Of a stretch of 64,000 bases of DNA, positions 26,587-60,534 are shown one piece after another. The notes below the pieces were generated by a model, which ran no database searches, was not told where the DNA came from, and saw nothing but the letters and a program-made list of their open reading frames with translations. The stretch lies in assembly GCF_000165425.1 (NCBI RefSeq), contig NW_001799289.1:1342-65341 (forward strand), given 5' to 3'. Each line of letters opens with the position of its first letter. Position 1 is the first letter of the stretch. The position numbers and the translations under genes are program-made. The stretch comes from Paramecium tetraurelia (Eukaryota > Ciliophora > Oligohymenophorea > Peniculida > Parameciidae).

Positions 26587-26988
26587 ATGTCATCAGGAGG
26601 AAAAGGAAAAGCAGGAAAGGGAGGCAAAGCCGCAGGAGCTCATAAATCAGTTTCCAGATCACACAAAGCTGGTTTGTAATTCCCAGTCGGAAGAGTTTCA
26701 AGATATTTGAAATAAGGAAGATACACAGAAAGAGTTGGTGCTGGTGCTCCAGTTTATCTTTCAGCTGTTTTGGAATATTTGGCTGCTGAAGTTTTGGAAC
26801 TTGCTGGAAATGCCGCTAAAGATAACAAGAAAAACAGAATCAATCCAAGACACATTCTTTTAGCCATCAGAAACGACGATGAATTAAACAAATTAATGGC
26901 CAACACTACAATCGCTGACGGTGGTGTTTTACCAAGCATTCATCCATAATTATACCCATCAAAGGAAGACCCAAGTTAAGCAGTTTGA
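26587..26988 (+). CDS. histone H2A with C-terminal SQ motif
   Basis: An intronless 133-residue core histone. It has a basic N-tail ([17 protein letters not shown]), the H2A signature [30 protein letters not shown] and [13 protein letters not shown]. Residues of the acidic patch are present. The C-terminus ends PSKEDPSQAV, with an SQ pair three residues from the end. This is the position at which H2A.X histones are phosphorylated after DNA breaks, although the usual next acidic residue is replaced by Ala. The gene converges with succinyl-CoA synthetase, with 104 bp between stops. Confidence 0.97.
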
Positions 26989-37296: not shown

Positions 37297-39608
<2,312 letters not shown>

Positions 39609-39782: not shown

Positions 39783-40446
39783 ATGGATGAACCATAAGTA
39801 GTAAAAATTATTGTAGTCGGCGAATCATATGCTGGAAAGACATCATTGTTATAGTAATATTGTTATAACGAGTTTGATCATAATCACAGTGCAACAATTG
39901 GTTGTGATTTCACTTTAAAGTGGATTACAAAAAATGGGACAAAACTGAAGTTATAGATTTGGGATGTGGCTGGTATCTATTAATTAAATTGAAAGGATAG
40001 GAGAGATTTTAAAATTTGTCTAAAATGTTTATACGATAAGCAAAGGGTTGCTTAATTATGTGTGACATTACTAATAAGAAATCCTTGGAAGCCGCTTTGT
40101 CTTGGCGTAATGTTGTTAAGGATATTGCAGATGAAGTTCCTATATTTTTAATTCAAAATAAAACTGACTTATTGTAAGGAGAAAGAGAGGAATACTAAAC
40201 TGAAGAATATTTAACTCAATTTGCACAACAACACAATTTTACTCGTAGTTACTAGATAAGTGTGAAACTAAATGAGAAGGTAGATTTGATATTTTACGAG
40301 CTTGTGGAGGCTATGATTGAGAAAGGGGTCATAAAATTAGAAGACAGTGTGATCAAAAGGTATTAATTAATTAACTTTAAAGTTCCTTTGTAATTAAAAA
40401 CGATAATAATGATCGAAATAAAGCAAAGAAAAAAGAATGTTGTTGA
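39783..40446 (+). CDS. Rab-family small GTPase
   Basis: A 205-residue GTPase of vesicle traffic with two 23-nt introns. G boxes: G1 VVGESYAGKTSL, G2 Thr in SATIGCDF, G3 WDVAGQERF (the first intron splits the G3 glycine), G4 QNKTDL and G5 SVK (usually SAK). The C-terminus ends KKKECC, a double-cysteine geranylgeranylation signal used by Rabs. The GCDF switch and long tail are not diagnostic of one Rab subtype. Confidence 0.95.
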
Positions 40447-45437: not shown

Positions 45438-48400
45438 TCAATTCATTGTATACTCCTATCTCTCATGAGATGGTACCAATTATAATTTTGGTTTGATGTT
45501 CATTGCCAAAAGTTCTTAAAATAACAATTTACAACAATATGGCAATCTAATTTAATAAACTTTATCTGTGTTACAACCTCTACAAACAGAATCACTCTTA
45601 AACATCCCACATATTTCACACACATACACATTAAATGGATCACTTGAAATCAATAATCTCTCTATTAATAAATTAGAAGCTCCATAAGCCAAAAAGCAAT
45701 CTCTCTCCATCTCTCCAATACGTTGACCACCATCTTTGGCTCTTCCTTCGACAGGCTAACGTGTAAGTTTCTCCATAGGACCTTTGGCTCTGGCATGAAT
45801 CTTGTCGATGACCATATGCTTCAGTCTTTGATAGAAAATAGGTCCTTGATAGACATAGCACTCCATGTATTCCCCAGTGATCCCAGAAATCAGACAGTCT
45901 TTTCCTTAATAATGAAATCCCCTTTTCAGTAATTCTTCCCCCACCTATAGGACATTCTCTCCCCCGAAGGCAGTTCCATATTTGAATTTGCCTTCCAAAG
46001 CTCCCAATTTACCACACAATAGTTCCATTAATTTAGCAATTGTCATTCTTGATGGATAACCATGAGGATTCATGATGAGATCAGGACACCATCCTCTTTC
46101 ATTGAAGGGCATGTCTTCCTAATTAACAATGAGACCAACGACACCCTTTTGACCATGACGACTTGAGAACTTATCTCCAAACTCAGGTCTTCTGATTTAC
46201 CTGAAGATTGTCTTGATAGTTTTGATTTTCTCAGTTCCATCATTGGTATTATTAATAATCAAGACTCTATCTACAGTATATGGCCATTTTTCTTTGAATA
46301 CAGAGGGAGTGTCTGCAATTTATATATTTTCAGTTTACGGATTATCTGGAACTTGAGGTGTCTTTTTATTCACATAAATATCTCCATGATGCAATTGGGC
46401 TCCCACCTTAGTAATGCCATCATTGTCTAAAGCATGGTATTTCTTGATAAACTTCTTTTTGGTATTATGGGTTTTGGTTGGTGGTTCATCAATTCTCTCA
46501 TTGAATCTGCTTTCCTTATTCCTTTGATTGATTTCACATTCAGTCACTGATTTTTTATAGACTGCAGTTCTGCCGAATCCTCTATCCAGTGAAGACTTAT
46601 TCATAATCAAAGCATCTTCGATATCATAACATGAATAACTCATCACTGCTACTTAAGCATTGTGTCCAGCTGGCAATCTGTGTTAGTTGACAGCTTCCAT
46701 GGACACCGTACGAACTAAAGGAGTCTGTGGGTATATTAATTGATACAATTAAGTATCACATCTGATTTATGTATTCATTCCAATAATACCTAGAGATTGT
46801 TTACCCATCTGACATTAAAAAGTATTACGAGCACTCTGATTGTGATGTGGAAATGGTACTAAACCAGTCACACAACTAAGGATGGTCATTTAATCTATTT
46901 CCAAATGAGTAGTCTCCATGGTCACATCATTGATAGTCAATGCAATAAATGCATTATCAGATTCATTAACATCCAGATATTCGATCTTCCCATTTTTCAC
47001 AAAACTAGAAAACACTGTTTTGGCATCATTCTACTTGAAATCAATCATGTCAATTTAAATTAATTGAGGTTTGCCATCTTTGACAAGAATCAATGGTCTG
47101 ACTAATCTACCACTATCACCAGAGATGTTTACTACTTTCCTTAAATCATCCTTGTGAATTGAAACAAATTCATTAATCTTTCCTCTCCTTCTTAAGATTC
47201 TTAATTGATCAACAAATTCCTGTGGTCTAGCATGCATTCCCACTATAATACCATTTAAGTACACTATGTAATTCTTATGAAATTCACTTGGTTTAAAATG
47301 ACATATATCTTCTACACCCATAGACAATATAATCTTATAAACACTATCTTAGATATCCTCCTAGGTGATGTGTGTCAATAAAGCCAACGTCTTAACTAGA
47401 CCACAATCCTCACCATCAGGAGTATCTGCAGGACAAATCATACCAAATTGAGATCCCACCAAGGCTCTTGGCCCACTTACTTTAAGTGTCTTTTACACCT
47501 GACTTCTCATTTTGGTAAGCATACCTAAAGCAGATGTATATGATATTCTGGCTAATAATTATGTAACTCCTTGTCTATCCATGTGAAATCTTTGTATTGT
47601 CCATTTTCCAGTTTTGATAGCTCTATTCAATCCCTTTGTGATATCAACTCCAAATTCCTTCATTTTCATAGTGACATCTTTAGGAGTGAATTTGCAATTG
47701 GCTTTGCCTAATTCCTTTTTGAGAATGCTTGATATAGTTGAGTTTAATCCTTTGAATAAATCTTCGAACAACAATTCAAGAAGATTGCCTGCACATCTCA
47801 TTCTTTTATTTCCATAGTAATCTTTATCATCAACAAATCGCTTGTCTTCCATTGCCAATATCAATCTTCTGACCATTTATCCTAGATATATTGCCTTGGG
47901 ATAGAAATCATATTTTTTGCAATTGACATGAGCCAGAAAGACTTGGGCTAGTTTCTCTCTGGCTTGATCTGCTAGATTGGATGATTGACCACCGAATTTA
48001 CTGGTAATTAACTTTCCAATATATTATAATGCATCCAATTGTGTTTTTATTTTTTCATCAGAGGAATCCTAAAAACTCATTAACAATTTCTCCACGATGC
48101 TTGGTTCAGTTCCAATCAATTCAATGATCTCTTTATCATTAACGATGCCTAAAGCCTTGAAAACGATAAAGAGAGGAGCATCTTTGAAACTTGAAGATTT
48201 CACATAAAATTTATTCTTTTTTAAAATAATCGATGCTTTGGATTTAGTTTCCAATTGATAAGATTGAACTGTCGACACATACTAATCTGTCTTATTGTCG
48301 ACATCAACTATGATTCTATTATCTACGACTTGTTCTAGTATGAGAATGACCTTCTCATTGCCTTCAATGATAAAATATCCTAAAAGTCTATAGAATGACA

Positions 48401-48915
48401 TCCTTACCTTTTGGATCGTATGGACATTCTCCATATTAGAAAATCTCAGCCTCGGTCTTGCCTGATAAATTGCACTTCTTTGATCCCAACATTATTGGCA
48501 TGCGTCCAATTAAAACATCTTTCTCTTCGATTGGCTCTCTGCCCTTCATATGAATACGCACATTCACACTATTTAGATTGTAACATTGCTTACTAGATAT
48601 CTCCTGCGTAAGTCTAATCGTTCAATCTACATTCGTGAGGATACAGGAGACTTTTCAAGGAGTACTTATCCCAACTGCTGGTGAATGTTGGATTTTCGAC
48701 TCTGATTGATAAGTACCTATGGGATCATAATGGGAAGTATGTTACTCCAAAAGGAAGGATGAATCACTCTCACAAGTAATCCTCTGATTCAAGGGTGACT
48801 TCACTATCTATTCTAGACGCTATTCAATGAAGTAATTGAAAGAATCAATGTGTTGTTTCTGTAATCCACGAAAAGACAAATACGAAGTGATTAGTTTATC
48901 CTTCTCTGAAATCAT
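45438..48915 (-). CDS. POLR3B: RNA polymerase III second-largest subunit (RPC2)
   Basis: One half of the active centre of RNA polymerase III, which transcribes tRNA and 5S rRNA genes. Three introns of 29, 25 and 28 nt near the 5' end give 1131 residues, the normal family length. Motifs in order: [59 protein letters not shown] with [88 protein letters not shown] and the C-terminal zinc ribbon [16 protein letters not shown]. The ending [19 protein letters not shown] is close to animal POLR3B and separates it from the Pol I and Pol II paralogues. Confidence 0.96.
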
Positions 48916-48929: not shown

Positions 48930-49496
48930 ATGGGTGACAATAATCCCAACAATTCAGATGGAATGCAATTATTGAAGACTCTCCTCACTGCAGATGTACC
49001 CTAGGAAGGCTCTGTTATGCAAGCTATTCGAAATGTATTATGGTTTCTAATCAAAGAAAGTCAATTCATTGCTCAATAACAAATAATAGATATCCATCTT
49101 ATAAGAATTACAATAGGCGTATGAATCATAATCTAATATCATCTTAGAAATCTTGATAACGAATTCAAGGAGATGAATGACAATACACTCATGGGACTAA
49201 ATGCCATCTATTTTTCATCTGTCGTCCTCACATAATTTATGTTCACCAGAAAGGTCAGCAAAGTCGTTTTCCTTCTCAGTTGTGCTTACTTCAATTTCTA
49301 CATCATCCAACCCATCGAGATCGAATACAAACTACGCAAATTGGCATTGCAAAATACTCTTGCAGGACAGGAAGTCAGAAATCTGTACAGATTCTACTTT
49401 AAGGATCATGAATTTACTAGGGAGATGACAGAAAAGTGCAAATTGTATGCATAGGCTGATGAAATTAAAAAATAAATTTATTCCAGAAAATTGTGA
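48930..49496 (+). CDS. small membrane protein, unknown
   Basis: A 171-residue protein with introns of 22 and 29 nt. The N-terminal 80 residues are soluble and helical (MGDNNPNNSDGMQLLKTLLT, NNKQQISILQELQQANLDNE). One or two membrane segments follow (LMGLNAIYFSSVVLTQFMF, KVVFLLSCAYFNFYIIQPI). The tail is charged (TREMTEKCKLYAQADEIKK). There is no motif. Both introns are needed to avoid TGA. It is divergent from RPC2 with an extremely short gap, and 202 bp upstream of the choline-transporter-like gene on the same strand. Confidence 0.75.
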
Positions 49497-49698
49497 TGTT
49501 GACTATTCTCGTGTCTTTATATTTTGACTTCATTTATAAAGATGGTAGAATTAGCCAATTTATTTACGACCACTCAAAAGGCGTTCCATATCGATATTTC
49601 AATATGAAATTCCTCGAATCGATCTACATTCATTCATTTTTGTTCTATATTTATATATTTTATAATGTGACATCATTCTATTATGGTTTATAATTATA

Positions 49699-51612
49699 AT
49701 GTCTAACAAAGTCTTACTTGCGGATTACAATAATCATGGTAATCAGCAATTCGAGTATCCTGAACAAGACATCTATTACACAGGTACATAAGAGTGTCCA
49801 TTATTTGAGGTCGTAAATTGAATCAAGATTTGAAACATGGACCCTTAGAACAAAGAGGCTGCCAAGACATCCTGTGTGTGATACTCTATTTGTCAGTTTG
49901 GGCCTTAATGATATTTTGCGCAATCAATTCGTGGGAAGCAGGAGATGCCTCCAAAATATATTTGCCATACGACAGTGTAAACTAAAGCCATAATAATAGT
50001 AATAAAGACAATGCGGAAGAGGCGATCTCAAAAGTTACTCCAACATCTACATCATAAGCTAGACGGAATCATATTGCGTCTCGGAATGTCCTGGAGAAAG
50101 TGGAGTTGGCAAAGAACTTCCATGCTATCAATGTTCTGCCCAAACAGCTCCCTATGCTAGTGCCTAATTGCTTACTCTGTGCTTCCCCACTCTCAAGGTC
50201 GACGAGAAATATAAAGAGTTGATAACCAATATTGTCGATATAAGCGGATTCCAAAGACATTATGCAGACATCGAAGAAACATGGCCAATCATTTTGGCTT
50301 GTGCTGGAATTGCATTTTTTATGGCTATCATACTAACGTTTTTGATTAGATTGGCAGCAGGATGTATAGTGTGGGGAATGATCTTGATTTATTTATTGAT
50401 CTTGGGATCTATCGGAACAGTAGCATTCTTACAATCCAAAGGACATTATTAAGAGTATAGAGTTCTGGATGATGCTCAATAATTGGAAATCATCGCCTAT
50501 GTATTTTGGAGTATCGGACTCTTGTCACTCTTGATAATTTTGTGTTTGGCCAAAAAGATTTCATAGGCTATTCAAGTTTTGAAAACAGCTGCTGATTTCA
50601 CAAGAGAAGAGTGGCAGGCTCTATTTGTTCCTGTCGTTATTCTCATCTTAGTGTTGGCATTCTTCGCCTATTGGATAATCTTCTCAGCCATCATATATTC
50701 AACCTCAAGTGATATAAGCAAGAGTTAATACAGTCCTTATGTGGAATTACAATGGGATGCAAAGACAGGTTGGCAATTGTGTCTTTACTTTTTCGCCTTG
50801 ATCTGGAATGTTTGTTTCTCATTGGCTCTTTGTCAATTTGTGATAAGCAGTTGCTGTTGCTTCTGGTATTACAGTCATCAAGGTTATCCATTGAGTAGCA
50901 GTATCCTAAAGAGTTTTTGTCGTGGATTCACTACTAATTTCGGTAGTCTCTTGTTTGGTTCCTTGATTTTGGCTATCGTTTGGACAATTAAGTTTGTGTT
51001 GGAGTTTTTGCATGTAATTTCAAGATTTAAATCAATAGAAACAATTAAAATAATCAGTGCAAGGTGACAATAATGCCATTGGATATGCTTTAAGATGTGC
51101 CAAATACTATGTCTCATGTTTCGAGAAGTTCATAAGATTTTTGAATCAAAATGCTTATACTATGATGGCTTTAACAGGGTAGAGTTTTTGCAATTCTGCT
51201 TACGATGCCTTCTATCTGATCCTGAGAAATGCTACTCGTGTAGCCATCACTCATGGATGTATGAATCAATTTCATTCTAATTCTAGTGGGTGAACTTTTT
51301 GAATTTTTGGGTGCTGTATTTATTTCAGCCTCCTCCTCCTTCATTTGCTACCTAATCATCACCAAGGCTGAAGCCTACAAAAATAATATCTTCAATCCAG
51401 TTGCTCCCACTTTGGTATGTATTATTGTTCATTACTTTTAGGCTTTCATCTTGGTCTCATATATGATTGGCAAGATGTTCATGAATTTATATGGAATGGG
51501 AGTTGACACTTTGTTGTTGTGTTTCATTGTAGATACTGAGATGAACAAAAACGAAGGAGGTGCTAAGTCAGTCCCACATTCCCTTAAATAATATGCTTCA
51601 GAATTAAATTGA
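49699..51612 (+). CDS. choline-transporter-like protein (SLC44/CTL)
   Basis: A multi-pass transporter-like membrane protein of the CTL family, which imports choline in animals and yeast relatives. After MSNKVLLADYNNHGNQQFEY there is a first membrane segment (ILCVILYLSVWALMIFCAIN), a large cysteine-containing outside loop (QCGRGDLKSYSN, YCVSECPGES, PCYQCSAQTAPYA), then about nine further segments. Family landmarks are RLAAGCIVWGMI, LEFLHKQLKQ followed by CFEKFIRFLNQNAYTMMALTG, FCNSAYDAFYLILRNATRVA, and the terminal LLLCFIVDTEMNKNEGGAKS. Five introns of 23-28 nt give 594 residues. The substrate is inferred from family only. Confidence 0.93.
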
Positions 51613-54278: not shown

Positions 54279-55228
54279 TCATAATAAAGAGCACCACCCT
54301 TGTTTTTAGTTCTATGGATCTTCTTCAACCTTTTTGAATTATTATTTTCTTGCGTTCTCCTTTTATTGAATAATATCATTTATAAGGCCAGTAAACATCT
54401 GATTGACATTGGACCCATTTTTGGCTGAAGTCTCATAAAAGAGTGCTTTGAATTAAGCAGCCAACTACTTGCCCTCATCATAACTAATGACTCTCTCAGA
54501 ACCTAAATCAGTTTTATTTCCGACAATAACAATGGAAGGTACATATTCTTATTTCTCAAACAGCTATTAAAATAACAACAGAGTATTTTTGATATCTTCA
54601 AAACTTTCTAAAGAGTTCACTGCATAAGTGAATATCAATCCTTCTTTGTCTTTCATCCATTGAGTTCTTAAGGACGTGTATGCTTCTTAACCACAGGTGT
54701 CAGAAATCTTGGTTGATGGATATACAATTTTACCTCGATTTAGCATTGCTAATCACCCACAATCACTCTTTTTGTGTATTTATCCAAAAGAGTGAGACTA
54801 TAATCTTCAAAAAATTCGTTATTAACCCATCGAGTCGTCAAATTAGATTTTCCAACAGAACCCATTCCCAACAATGAAATCCTGTATTAAACTAATTATT
54901 TTGATTCGCCATAAGAATTTTAAAAATTAGAATTATAATTATTGAACTCCTCTCCCTATATTAATAACACATTTTAGCTATACACTAGATATGAAATAAC
55001 TTGCTCCCATTTATATGCTATCAATGTCCATTATCTCTTTTCCTGATTGATCAAATATCCTGGATGCTCTTAGATCTAATAATTATTATGTCCAAAACCT
55101 AAAACTGCTGAGCACATTTGCAAAAACTTCCTACGATCAGTTTCCTTTCTCAAATAATGCACCTTCATTGATTTACGTGCATCTGCATTATTGTATATCT
55201 GTATTGTAACATTATTGGTATTTATCAT
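54279..55228 (-). CDS. Ras/Rab-like GTPase with N-terminal doublecortin/KHA-like domain
   Basis: A 287-residue protein with introns at 55131-55162 (32 nt), 54956-54983 (28 nt) and 54708-54733 (26 nt). Residues 6-76 resemble the ubiquitin-like fold of doublecortin (DCX) and KHA domains: VTIQIYNNADARKSM, ASRIFDQSGKEIMDIDSIQ and GASYFISSGEEF. After a short linker comes a complete small GTPase: G1 GMGSVGKS (101-108), G3 DTCGQEAY (Cys for the usual Ala), G4 NKTD, G5 ETSAKNG. The C-terminus CSLL is a CaaX box suited to geranylgeranylation. DCX domains bind microtubules and KHA-like domains mediate protein contacts, so a membrane-anchored GTPase linked to the cytoskeleton is an inference. Without the first two introns the N-terminal domain is lost. 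Confidence 0.85.
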
Positions 55229-56397
55229 ATAATTTATTATATTTTCTTTATAATTTTCATTATTCTAAAATACACAAAATGAGGAGTGAAACAACGCATT
55301 TTTCATATAATATCATTGAATCATAACATAAAATAAAACACTGGAACCTCATTCATAATCCCAAAGGAGCATCACAACTCCTTACCTAATTATTATCTTG
55401 ATTCAACTCCTCAACTAACCATCCAATCTCAATGCATACTAAAATATGATAATTATATCCATATGACCATATAATGAATAAATAATATCTGAAGTCATCT
55501 TAAGTGATTTATGTATTTTCACCTACTTTTTTTGTATTCAAACATCTTACATCGTTTTAATAATCTTAATTCCCTTACTAAATAGAATGCATGTTTGTGG
55601 GGTATAGACATTCTTTTTTTTGAATTCTTTTATGCATTTTGAGAACATTACTATAAATACATTTCTAAGATTACAATTAGATTAACAAGATGCAGTCATT
55701 AAATGGTTTTAACAGATTGTTATTTAATCTCAAGGTCTTGATTCATTCTAAAATACATTGACTATTCTCGTAGCACTTCTAACCTATTTAATTATTGTTA
55801 TTCTCCCTTTGTAATCGACAGGCGTTTTTAATTTCTTTTGATAATATATTAATTAAACTCATAAATTACAAAAAATATTTATAGATGTCACAAAACAAAT
55901 GTATAAATAAACTAATTTAACATACAATTAACAAGATACTATATTATTAATCAATAATCGTTAGCAGTTTAACTACTAATTCTCAAAAAGAAGCTTGCTA
56001 TCAATATTTTTTCCATCAAATTAAAAAGAAAACTAAACTACCATGAATTATAGTTTGTTTAATAATTAAAAATAAGTTGAATAAATAGTTTATGTTGTTA
56101 TATCTTTGTAAATAGACTGGATTGAATATGAAAATCATTTTGTTATAAAAACAATACTTCAATATTTTAAATGATTTAAAGTTGTTAATATTATAATAAT
56201 ATTTCGATATTATATTTTAATTATTTCAATATTTAGTTTAATCCTGATAAAAAAAGTGCAAACTAGATTATTATTAAAAATTTGGATTGAAAAATCATTC
56301 AGGTTTTGATCATATTAATCATTTTACATGATTATAATACTAATGTTTATTTGTATTACACATTTATTAATTTTGAAATGATTTATTTTCAGTAATC
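55229..56397. other. AT-rich divergent intergenic, 1.17 kb
   Basis: A spacer between divergent genes. Minus-strand fragments around 55500-55860 look coding-like in short pieces (for example MSIPHKHAFYLVRELRLLKR) but break at TGA. No gene is supported. Confidence 0.5.
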
Positions 56398-59015
56398 ATG
56401 TTTAGAAGAAAAAAAGTAGGATATGCCGAAGAATTAAGCATCCCTCCAAAGTCCTAAATAGTTGGAAGATACTCTAGAACGCATAAAGGAAGTATATAAA
56501 TAGATTATAAAAAGTTTCGAGAAGAATTTATGGCTTCATTGCAAGAATACTTAACAATTAGACTGTCTAATGATGATTAAGACCCTTGTGAAGAGGTATA
56601 TTGATCTATAAATATGAGTAGGTGATCTAAATCATTAAAAACCTATGTATCAAACTTGTAGATAAACCTCTCTGGAATTTCAAGGAATTAGCTGCTGAGC
56701 TCGAATTGCAGCTGGAGGGACACATAGGTATAGGTTGAGTTTAAACTATGTATTTTTTTTAGACGATTATACCGTGTTTAATTAAGTCAAATAATTGATT
56801 TCCAGTTTGAATGCCCAATACTCAAACAAGTTTAATTAAATAAGTTCTTGTTATTTAAAGAGTATATAAAGTGAAAAGGCCATCCCGAAGCAACAAATAA
56901 AGAGAATATGTCATTATGATGAAGGTAAATGTAAGCCTAATAATACAAGTTTAAGAGTTGATACCAAATACACGGGATAGAGTGGAGGAAATAAACCAAC
57001 ATCTTTTATCATTTATCCAGTATAAACTTATTATTTCATTTGATTAGTCATGACAGCCTACTACAGGTGGATCCGTGGTGTTGTCCATTCTAATCTTCAT
57101 TTGGGGTAACTTTAACAGATCAAGATATTTCATATTAGGCTAAAAAGTTGAATGTTGACATAATTTTGATTGATACTTTTGGAATCAAGTAAAATATATC
57201 CCAAAAGCTGTTTCTTCTGTTCCCAAATTATGAGACAATTTTACCCCAGTTGTCATCATCGATCAATATCAACAAAGGGAATTTATAGCAAGTAATGTCG
57301 AATTTATTTTGGATAGGCTTTATCAAACATATACGATGTATCCAATATCCTTGTGGATTGGCCTAACATACTCACATTGAAGGGGAAAGGAGTGGTCTGT
57401 TGTAACTTCGATGGGTTTGTAACCAATGAATTTATCAACTTTTATTTTGGAGAAGTTTACACTCCTCAGAGATGGTTTGAGAAGTAGACAGTTTTCAATA
57501 AGAGAATGTAGGATGGAAATAGAAAATCGGGTTTCTAAAGTCCGTATGCAGAATTCCACATCAATGATGAACTCTTAGTAAGAAAGTTAAATATAAAAAA
57601 AGTTTATTGATCCAACTAGGTATGGAAATATCGCATTACACATTTCATATTCTTGTGATCCAAATTGTAAATTTGTAACTGTTTAAATCAACTCTTCCTA
57701 TTAACTTGCTATTTTTACATTGAAAAAAATTAATTATCTAGAGGAGTTGACTCTCCCCTTCCCATCCACATCAAATGACTTGTGTCTGTGTGGGTCCATC
57801 TACTGCAAAAGACTCTCACAATTAGAAGCATTCAATAATCGACTAACTCAAAATTACCCTAATTATATTCAAAGAAATGCCTTACTATTATAATCAACTA
57901 TTTTTGGAAAAATCAATAATTAAACCACAATTCCTGATTGGTTGAGTAACTGGGAGAAACTGAACTCAGCCTAAGATCAAATCAACATCCTGACATGTGT
58001 GGATAAAGTTAAATTTGTACTTAATACGTTGAATGTCACTACTCCACCATTATATCTGGTTTTTGATACCTTTGATGTATTTTGGAAGAATTATGACAAT
58101 AACAAACCTAAGAATGAACTGAAATAATCCATTTTCAATGAAGTCAAAACAATGTTGATGAGACATTCAGATAGGAAAGAATGTCAAGAAGGATTGGAAA
58201 TCTTACAATTAATGAAATCCATAATAGAAAGTAAAGATCAATATAAAATGTAATTGACAAGACTCCTATTGCTTGTATTAAGCGAATTATTGTTGAAGAT
58301 GGAGTCAGCTCCCTTTCATAACGAAGGTTTATCTACAATATTATATTTTATGTCATTCACTCATACATACTTCTCATCAACTTAATATGAGGGATTCAAT
58401 GGCAAACCTTTTGAAGAAAATGAGTTTGAATACATCCCATAACCAAAAAATAAGTAGAAATTAGCCTTGTCTAAAATGTACACTCCCTAATACATATGGG
58501 GTCAATTAATCAATTGGAATAAGCAAACTCTCCAAAATCCTTAATCTTCTATGGCTCAAGAAAGAAGAGGAGTCCTGTGTTACCCTTCTTTAATACTGTC
58601 TTTTGACAATAAACATAAATTATTTCCTTATTAATGCAAAACAAGGGAAAAATTTCTAGAGTACTTCTACACTAAAAGTGATATCCAACCTGATCTATCT
58701 ATTTGGTCATACAAAAATTAATATAAGTATATATTTTAAATATGAAATTTTAGTGTCTATGGAACAATATTTTTCGAACAATGTTTTTCATAATAAATAG
58801 TGGGAGAACAATTCATTACTGAGATTTCAAAGTGTGGTCTAGGATCCTTCTTAAACAAGTTTAAATTTTGGTTATAAATTGAAAGTAGATTCAAACAGGA
58901 TAATCAAATGATAGAATACTTAAATTTCATATATGAAAAGTAATTGCATGTTTAGTAATATTAGATATTTTGTAAATATCAACAATTAATTACGTAAATT
59001 CAATTCAAATTCTGA
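56398..59015 (+). CDS. SET-domain protein, probable lysine methyltransferase
   Basis: An 810-residue protein with seven introns of 19-35 nt. A helical N-terminal region precedes VDPWCCPFQSSFGVTL and a cysteine/histidine cluster (GINCFFCSQIM, YPSCHHRS). The SET core follows: VCCNFDGFVTNEFINFYFGE with YTPQRWFEKQ, then RYGNIALHISYSCDPNCKFV, which replaces the NHSCxPN motif with YSCDPN, and EELTLPF for the usual EELTxDY. A post-SET-like CLCGSIYC follows. The last 330 residues are helical. SET enzymes methylate histone or other lysines. The DY-to-PF change at the active-site tyrosine makes activity uncertain. Confidence 0.85.
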
Positions 59016-59211: not shown

Positions 59212-60177
59212 TCATAAACCTACTGCCTTAGTACTTAAATCCCATAATTATGTTTCTAATCCACATTCCCTCACTAATTTAGTTGATTTAGATAATTGGT
59301 TTTTTTAATAATATCCTTATGGCACTAATTCTTCATATGGTTATAACATTGTATACTCAGTCGTTCTTGAACCTTGCTCTTCATTTAATGAGAACTAAGA
59401 CATCAAATATATAACCACTGTAGCAATGGCACTTAATATTCGATTTGATCCATTTTTAGAACCAAAGATCTCTGTTCTTACAAATCCAGGATGTAGTGAT
59501 ACAGCCTTTATTCTTCTATTTTCCTTGTCAAATTTCTATTATAAGGCTTAGGTGAACAAAATGTTAGCAAACTTTGTTGTGGCATAAGTACTCATTCCCA
59601 TACCTATTTCTCCTTTGATTGCCTTCTGAAAGTCAGGAGCTGACCTCACGAATTCATGAGCCCCACTTGCCACATTAATTATTCTAGACTTGTCACTCAT
59701 AACATCCAAAAGAAGATTTGTCAAAAGAAAATGGCCCAAGTGATTTGTGGCAAATGTGAGCTCATGGTTCAAATTGTTTTTTTATTCGTTGATAATAAAT
59801 ATACCAGCATTATTGATTAGGTAATCACATTAGTTGAATCTTTATTTAAATTCTTTAACGAATTATCTTACCGAATCATAATTTGGTAAATCCAAATTTA
59901 TATAATGTAAATTTTTATTCTTACTTATCTTTGATATTTCATCGATAATTATTTGAGTTTTTTCCTTACTTCTACATGCAAATATCACTGTTGCACCTCT
60001 TTAAGCCAACTTCTTGGCTGTCTCCTTACCAACACCGGCAGAAGACCCTGTCACAATAGCGATCTTGCCAGTTAAATCCACGTTATAAGTTCTCTTCGGT
60101 CCTGCCTTATTCAATGAATAAATAAATCCACCCAAAATAATGGCTATTAGGATTATCACTATAATAAAAAATATCAT
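59212..60177 (-). CDS. short-chain dehydrogenase/reductase, retinol-dehydrogenase-like
   Basis: An intronless 321-residue SDR. A membrane anchor (MIFFIIVIILIAIILGGFIY) precedes the Rossmann fold: cofactor loop IVTGSSAGVGKETA, ACRSKEK, LDLPNYDSV, NNAGIF, NHLGHFLLTNLLLD, catalytic Ser in INVASGAH, and YATTKFAN with the YxxxK pair. HPGFVRTEIF is the usual post-active-site PG motif. The ACRS stretch after the second strand fits NADP preference. Membrane-anchored relatives reduce retinoids, lipids or sterols; the substrate is unknown. Confidence 0.95.
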
Positions 60178-60534
60178 AATTAAAATATTAAATCATATAT
60201 TGAATTTAAGAAACCTTTTATAGTAGAAACAGCGTATTAAAGTAGGTATTATTATTGGAATCTAATTGATATTTGATCTTATTGCGTATTTGATCTTTGA
60301 CAATTATAAAGTTTAGTATTATTTGAGAAAATAAACTTTATTCTTATTTCCTAAAAAAAGTGTTATCAAAGTTTGTAAATAAAAATTCTAAATCCTTTGC
60401 ATATTCCAAAGCCCCTTCAATTTTTTGAGATTTCTTAGTGGATGGAAAGAGAGAGATGATATTTTGTTTAATAATATTATTGAAAATATGATATTTTATA
60501 TAAGAAGTGGAAAATAATTAAAATAATAAAGTCT
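60178..60534. other. AT-rich intergenic, 357 bp
   Basis: Spacer upstream of the dehydrogenase and downstream of the small gene at 60535. No motif seen. Confidence 0.6.

Follow-up and report, generated by a model that had tools for sequence, protein, structure and literature searches.

A Paramecium gene predicted to join a doublecortin-type domain to a Ras-type GTPase with a CaaX ending

The window analysed here, a stretch of 64,000 nucleotides from Paramecium tetraurelia, carries on its minus strand a gene (54279-55228) that begins with the ATG at 55228 and ends with the TGA at 54281-54279. Its four exons join in one frame under the ciliate code and give a product of 290 residues. These coordinates are exactly those proposed in the first-pass annotation, and the three short introns by which it joined head and GTPase recur in our model, with lengths of 23, 28 and 26 bases in a single 290-codon frame. 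The features, all on the minus strand, are as follows.

54279-55228, minus strand: whole doublecortin-Ras gene, predicted 290-residue fusion, ciliate code
55099-55228, minus strand: exon 1, residues 1-43, first part of the doublecortin-type head
55076-55098, minus strand: intron 1, 23 bases, ends TTAG
54984-55075, minus strand: exon 2, rest of the head to residue 74, containing RIFDQSGKEI and GASYFISS
54956-54983, minus strand: intron 2, 28 bases, ends ATAG; its excision puts head and GTPase in frame
54734-54955, minus strand: exon 3, residues 75-148, comprising linker, P-loop and switch I
54845-54868, minus strand: G1 box GMGSVGKS, residues 104-111; no ATG lies between the head and M105
54708-54733, minus strand: intron 3, 26 bases, ends CAAG
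54279-54707, minus strand: exon 4, switch II to the C-terminus, with the stop TGA
54684-54701, minus strand: G3 box DTCGQE, with Cys at the Ras Ala59 position in the HRAS alignment
54282-54293, minus strand: C-terminal CSLL, a CaaX-type prenylation signal read from the sequence

Because an in-frame ATG lies upstream at 55306, which could add 26 residues to the protein, the translation start of the gene is not certain.

The gene model takes TGA as the sole stop and reads TAA and TAG as Gln, and the coding sequence contains 17 in-frame TAA/TAG codons before it ends in TGA. In the same window, the gene for RPC2, an RNA polymerase III subunit (45441-48545, minus strand), has an open frame of 1035 codons with 29 in-frame TAA/TAG codons; the lack of TGA inside this frame is by construction. 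Residues 56-1024 of this frame align with solved RPC2 at 984 bits, and the 29 TAA/TAG codons together with this alignment therefore support the ciliate code. The G+C content of the window is 28.6%, which, taken with this code and the short introns, agrees with a Paramecium-like ciliate; scans of the window with Rfam and for tRNAs returned no matches. Other genes in the window encode a choline-transporter-like protein (49463-51064, plus strand; Pfam 131.8 bits), a SET-domain protein with an SDG2 C-terminal match (57381-58742, plus strand) and a short-chain dehydrogenase (59215-60192, minus strand; Pfam 118.5 bits), and a short gene without introns at 26587-26988 (plus strand), recognised by its sequence, presumably encodes a histone H2A-like protein. 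A kinesin motor gene (37367-39608, plus strand, with ends taken from a crude gene finder; Pfam 284 bits on the frame 37448-39496) lies shortly upstream of a Rab-like GTPase gene, which runs from 39783 to about 40588 on the plus strand, its 3' end being approximate. The G3 box of this Rab-like gene, DVAGQERF, is interrupted by a 23-base intron (39973-39995) ending AAAG; its NKTD box is kept, and its G5 region reads QISVKL where SAK is usual.

At intron 1 of the doublecortin-Ras gene, the phase allows seven GT-AG introns of 18-35 bases; one of the seven contains an internal stop and was left out, and the remaining six were scanned. The 23-base intron gives 32.1 bits to PF24478, against 18.4-23.7 bits for the other five splices, whereas PF25510 (29.7 versus 27.5-29.8 bits) and the DCX model (18.3 versus 14.8-18.3 bits) do not decide among them, so that only one of the three models prefers the 23-base form. 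When introns 1 and 2 are retained, the head falls to 13.1 bits to PF24478 and shows no match to PF25510 or DCX. With intron 3 removed, the stretch from switch I through the G3 box aligns to KRas without gaps. Its CAAG acceptor differs from TAG, the common intron end in the window: in genes scoring above 60, the crude gene finder placed 15 introns of 22-31 bases, 11 of which end in TAG. The intron of the Rab-like gene, which is fixed by homology at the G3 box, sets a precedent for an AAAG acceptor. Codon usage misjudges exon 2, scoring 0.5 in the chosen frame versus 2.2 in another, and 2% of random windows match or exceed the codon-usage score of the whole coding sequence. The crude gene finder began at 55168, found none of introns 1, 2 and 3 and put one other intron in their place; it likewise linked exon 1 with the GTPase. 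Both measures, codon usage and this simple finder, are too weak to back the introns.

The spliced coding sequence has ATG codons at positions 1, 21, 38, 59, 66, 105, 166 and 252. Specifically, codons 59 and 66, the last before the P-loop, lie inside the head, and codon 105 lies inside the P-loop itself, and a separate GTPase must therefore start within the head or within its own P-loop. The GTPase thus lacks a start codon that it could use by itself, and the sequence therefore indicates a single fusion protein, in which about 20 residues link the head to the GTPase. We are highly confident that the doublecortin-Ras protein is a real single fusion.

The spliced head matches PF24478 (DCX2_DCDC1) with 32.1 bits when scored alone, above the cut-off of 27.8, and the whole protein still scores slightly over it at 28.7 bits. 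The match places residues 2-69 on profile positions 10-77, that is, 68 residues on 68 positions, and through PF24478 the head belongs by sequence to the doublecortin superfamily, in its DCDC1 type. Two related models fall short of their cut-offs: PF25510 (Ubiquitin_DCDC1) gives 29.7 bits against 30.4, and the main DCX model PF03607 gives 18.3 bits for the head alone and 15.9 for the whole protein against a gathering cut-off of 22, with human N-DCX (77.9 bits) and C-DCX (70.6 bits) as the yardstick for this model. Scored separately, exon 1 (14.2 bits to PF24478) and residues 44-80, which are exon 2 plus a few residues (25.3 bits to PF25510), are both below the cut-offs, and point to one kind of domain, that of DCDC1. 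Among solved structures, the head comes closest to the doublecortin domain of Toxoplasma TgDCX (6b4a; E = 0.016, 18.7 bits), with 15 of 30 residues identical over head residues 47-76 as counted from the alignment. Such a low score is normal for the superfamily, because human N-DCX scores similarly low, with 22.2 bits to 6b4a and 16.3-17.2 bits to human C-DCX chains. By contrast, a two-sequence model built from human N- and C-DCX gives the head 4.4 bits, whereas the best of 5000 shuffles reaches 11.1 bits; the head therefore sides with the DCDC1 type and not with canonical DCX domains. The head is predicted to be doublecortin-like under any of the intron 1 splices. DCDC1 and DCDC5 are names that we take to denote one human locus. 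Doublecortin-type domains often bind microtubules. The head (residues 1-78) carries 11 Lys/Arg versus 10 Asp/Glu and has a pI of 7.9.

The first-pass annotation had called this region DCX/KHA-like. Its doublecortin half holds, in the DCDC1 form given by the 32.1 bits to PF24478, and its KHA half is not supported, since the Pfam scan returned no KHA match up to E = 10, a range in which HMMER's filters hide weak matches. The same scan, within the same filters, gave no RA/RBD and no p25-alpha match up to E = 10. KHA, RA/RBD and p25-alpha were rejected on these results as identities of the head.

Residues 100-261 form a Ras-family GTPase, with 146 bits to PF00071, 67.9 bits to the NCBIfam model small_GTP (cut-off 42.5) and 118 bits to a solved KRas chain; KRas, Rap1, R-Ras2 and RalA are the top solved chains among the best 60 of 806 matches. 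The G1-G5 boxes are complete in the alignment to HRAS (GMGSVGKS, the switch I Thr, DTCGQE, NKTD and ETSAK), and from these motifs the domain very likely binds GTP. In switch I, YDPTIEDSY of HRas becomes YSLTLLDKY, which keeps Ras Tyr32, Thr35, Asp38 and Tyr40 and replaces Glu37 by Leu. The G3 box reads DTCGQE instead of DTAGQE, as had been described, and the replacement of Ala59 by Cys with Gln61 kept suggests, on Ras biochemistry, an altered timing of the switch and not a dead enzyme. We consider it very probable that the Ras-type domain is an active GTPase. The CSLL box noted earlier is indeed present at the C-terminus, and the protein is probably prenylated; a final Leu in a CaaX box favours geranylgeranylation.

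Against twelve human references, the domain scores 116 bits with Rap1A, 115 with RalA, 107 with Rheb, 104 with HRas and 92.8 with Rab5A, the best of four Rabs. Three trees of 13, 11 and 12 rows, in which human references were entered by hand and long branches include that of the GTPase itself, group it with Ras, Rap, Ral and Rheb, apart from Rab, Rho, Ran and Arf, with fork support of 96/95, 96/96 and 95/96. The earlier reading of a complete Ras/Rab-like GTPase thus stands for its completeness and its Ras type (146 bits, trees), and the Rab part is set aside. In particular, a Rab identity was rejected on the G3 sequence ISDTCGQE, which is not of the WDTAGQE type, on 92.8 bits to Rab5A versus 116 to Rap1A, and on the trees. 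A grouping with Rheb received support of 84/67 in one analysis, in which both branches are long, and was unresolved in further trees; a firm Rheb identity was dropped, as this closeness rests on long branches.

Ras-superfamily switches usually reach microtubules through separate effector proteins. From the parts present in the sequence, namely a single DCDC1-type domain, a linker, a complete Ras-family GTPase and a CaaX box, we infer docking and a switch role, and we propose that the protein may be a prenylated switch of the Ras type, recruited by its head either to tubulin or to a partner bound on microtubules. GTP-dependent effector binding would thereby be placed where membrane and microtubules meet, for which the cortex, the basal bodies and the cilia are candidate sites in a ciliate. 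This is the best explanation that we can offer, and we put it at slightly better than even. Docking is favoured by the head's score over the PF24478 cut-off, with PF25510 and DCX under theirs, and by its top solved match, TgDCX, which is described as binding tubulin polymers (PMC7048138). The switch role is backed by the Ras-family scores and trees of the GTPase, and DCDC5, with its reported RAB8 interaction (PMC4756281), is a human case of a doublecortin-domain protein tied to a small GTPase. On the other side, the charge of the head is near neutral, its score lies under the main DCX cut-off (18.3 versus 22), and the two-sequence human DCX model does not separate it from shuffles. In frog cells, five relatives of TgDCX that carry a DCX domain (CvDCX2, CvDCX3 and VbDCX1-3) are reported not to localise significantly to microtubules (PMC7048138). 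The near-neutral charge and these five relatives cast doubt on microtubule binding by the head, which nevertheless seems plausible. Direct contact of the head with tubulin falls somewhat short of an even chance, and action through another protein is a tentative option, only slightly less likely.

The head may instead serve as a scaffold for other proteins, such as dynein, kinases or a GTPase regulator, and make no contact with tubulin. Its better fit to the DCDC1-type models than to the main DCX model and its near-neutral charge would agree with this, as would human DCDC5, for which interactions with dynein, RAB8 and RABin8 are reported (PMC4756281). However, TgDCX, the head's top solved match, binds tubulin polymers according to PMC7048138, and a partner of the head is hypothetical here, so we regard a scaffold as unlikely, though worth weighing. 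A further reading, in which the head folds back onto the GTPase and acts as its internal effector or inhibitor, is considered because doublecortin and Ras-binding domains have the beta-grasp fold in common; a survey of that fold places DCX and RA in one ubiquitin-like group (PMC1949818). The short linker and the four Ras residues retained in switch I would also suit such an arrangement, whereas, as far as HMMER's filters allow, the Pfam scan gave the head no RA or RBD match up to E = 10, and Leu at Ras Glu37 means that the usual effector contacts are changed; we judge fold-back improbable. Least credible is an artefact of gene model or assembly, with doublecortin and GTPase genes transcribed separately: although the exon joining is predicted from sequence alone, the introns were not recovered by codon usage or the crude finder and intron 3 ends CAAG, the finder too linked exon 1 with the GTPase, the last ATGs before the P-loop lie inside the head and the next lies in the P-loop, reading through unspliced introns 1 and 2 (51 bases together) meets no stop between exon 1 and the GTPase, and a product with intron 1 out and intron 2 kept stops at the TGA at 54809-54807, which makes the artefact very improbable.

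Returning to a prenylated Ras-type switch docked through its head, a broader form would be a ciliate class of Ras-type switches within a microtubule-associated protein, of which this protein would be the first member seen; the head would set the GTPase on cortical or ciliary microtubules, prenylation would add a membrane tie, and the GTP state would control the link. We hold this extension to be doubtful. A doublecortin-type domain and a Ras-type GTPase in one chain would form a direct, testable link between switch and microtubule, in cells whose layout depends on cortical and ciliary microtubules.

Relatives were sought in several places. A blastp search against six-frame pieces of at least 15 residues from the window, with E up to 1, recovered only pieces of the gene itself and one match at E = 0.33, which is the Rab-like gene; a paralogue within the window was set aside on this result. 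A pattern scan of viral contigs gave no match, a scan of genome contigs gave 40 stretches that matched the pattern, none of which was confirmed, and tblastn of the head against phages covered 114 records with a best E of 4, which is noise. A limited search of the open-licence literature, covering listings and chosen passages, found no doublecortin-GTPase fusion. Such a fusion is absent from the parts of PMC13406575 consulted, the available passages of a Tetrahymena Rab survey (PMC2954822) make no mention of DCX or doublecortin, and a term search of the main text of PMC1550402 found no ciliate, Tetrahymena, Paramecium, protist, GTPase or Ras. Protein databases may well hold proteins with this domain order from other ciliates.

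Several known systems resemble parts of this protein. The 2006 survey names, in the passages at hand, kinase, ricin and HELP/WD modules as partners of doublecortin domains (PMC1550402). DCLK kinases and DCX-EMAP (EMAL), like the present protein, join a doublecortin domain to another functional module, which is a kinase in DCLK and HELP plus WD repeats in DCX-EMAP, whereas here it is a GTPase (PMC1550402). The best Pfam match of the head, a DCDC1 domain, likens it to human DCDC1/DCDC5, but DCDC5 is reported to interact with a separate Rab (PMC4756281) and here a Ras-type GTPase lies in the same chain. TgDCX and apicortin share with the head an alveolate doublecortin domain, its best solved-structure match. 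Apicortins are described as combining DCX with a partial p25-alpha (PMC7048138), and an identity as apicortin was rejected here, as the Pfam scan, subject to HMMER's filters, showed no p25-alpha match up to E = 10.

A close parallel in design lies in PX-Rheb of Cryptista and FYVE-Rheb of Euglenozoa, described as Ras-family GTPases with N-terminal targeting domains (PMC5869587), which likewise are protist Ras-family GTPases with an extra N-terminal domain. The FYVE-Rheb of SRT308 is reported to retain a CaaX box and, in the same way as PX-Rheb, is described as anchored at both ends; conventional Rheb has seemingly been lost in alveolates, with a membrane-spanning form in some ciliates (PMC5869587). 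Added N-terminal domains on Ras-family GTPases are thus already published, and the new element here is the doublecortin-type domain. Unlike the PX and FYVE domains of the Rheb fusions, which are reported to bind PI3P, the N-terminal domain of the present protein is of the doublecortin type, and it would stand as a third kind beside the PX and FYVE of protist Rheb (PMC5869587).
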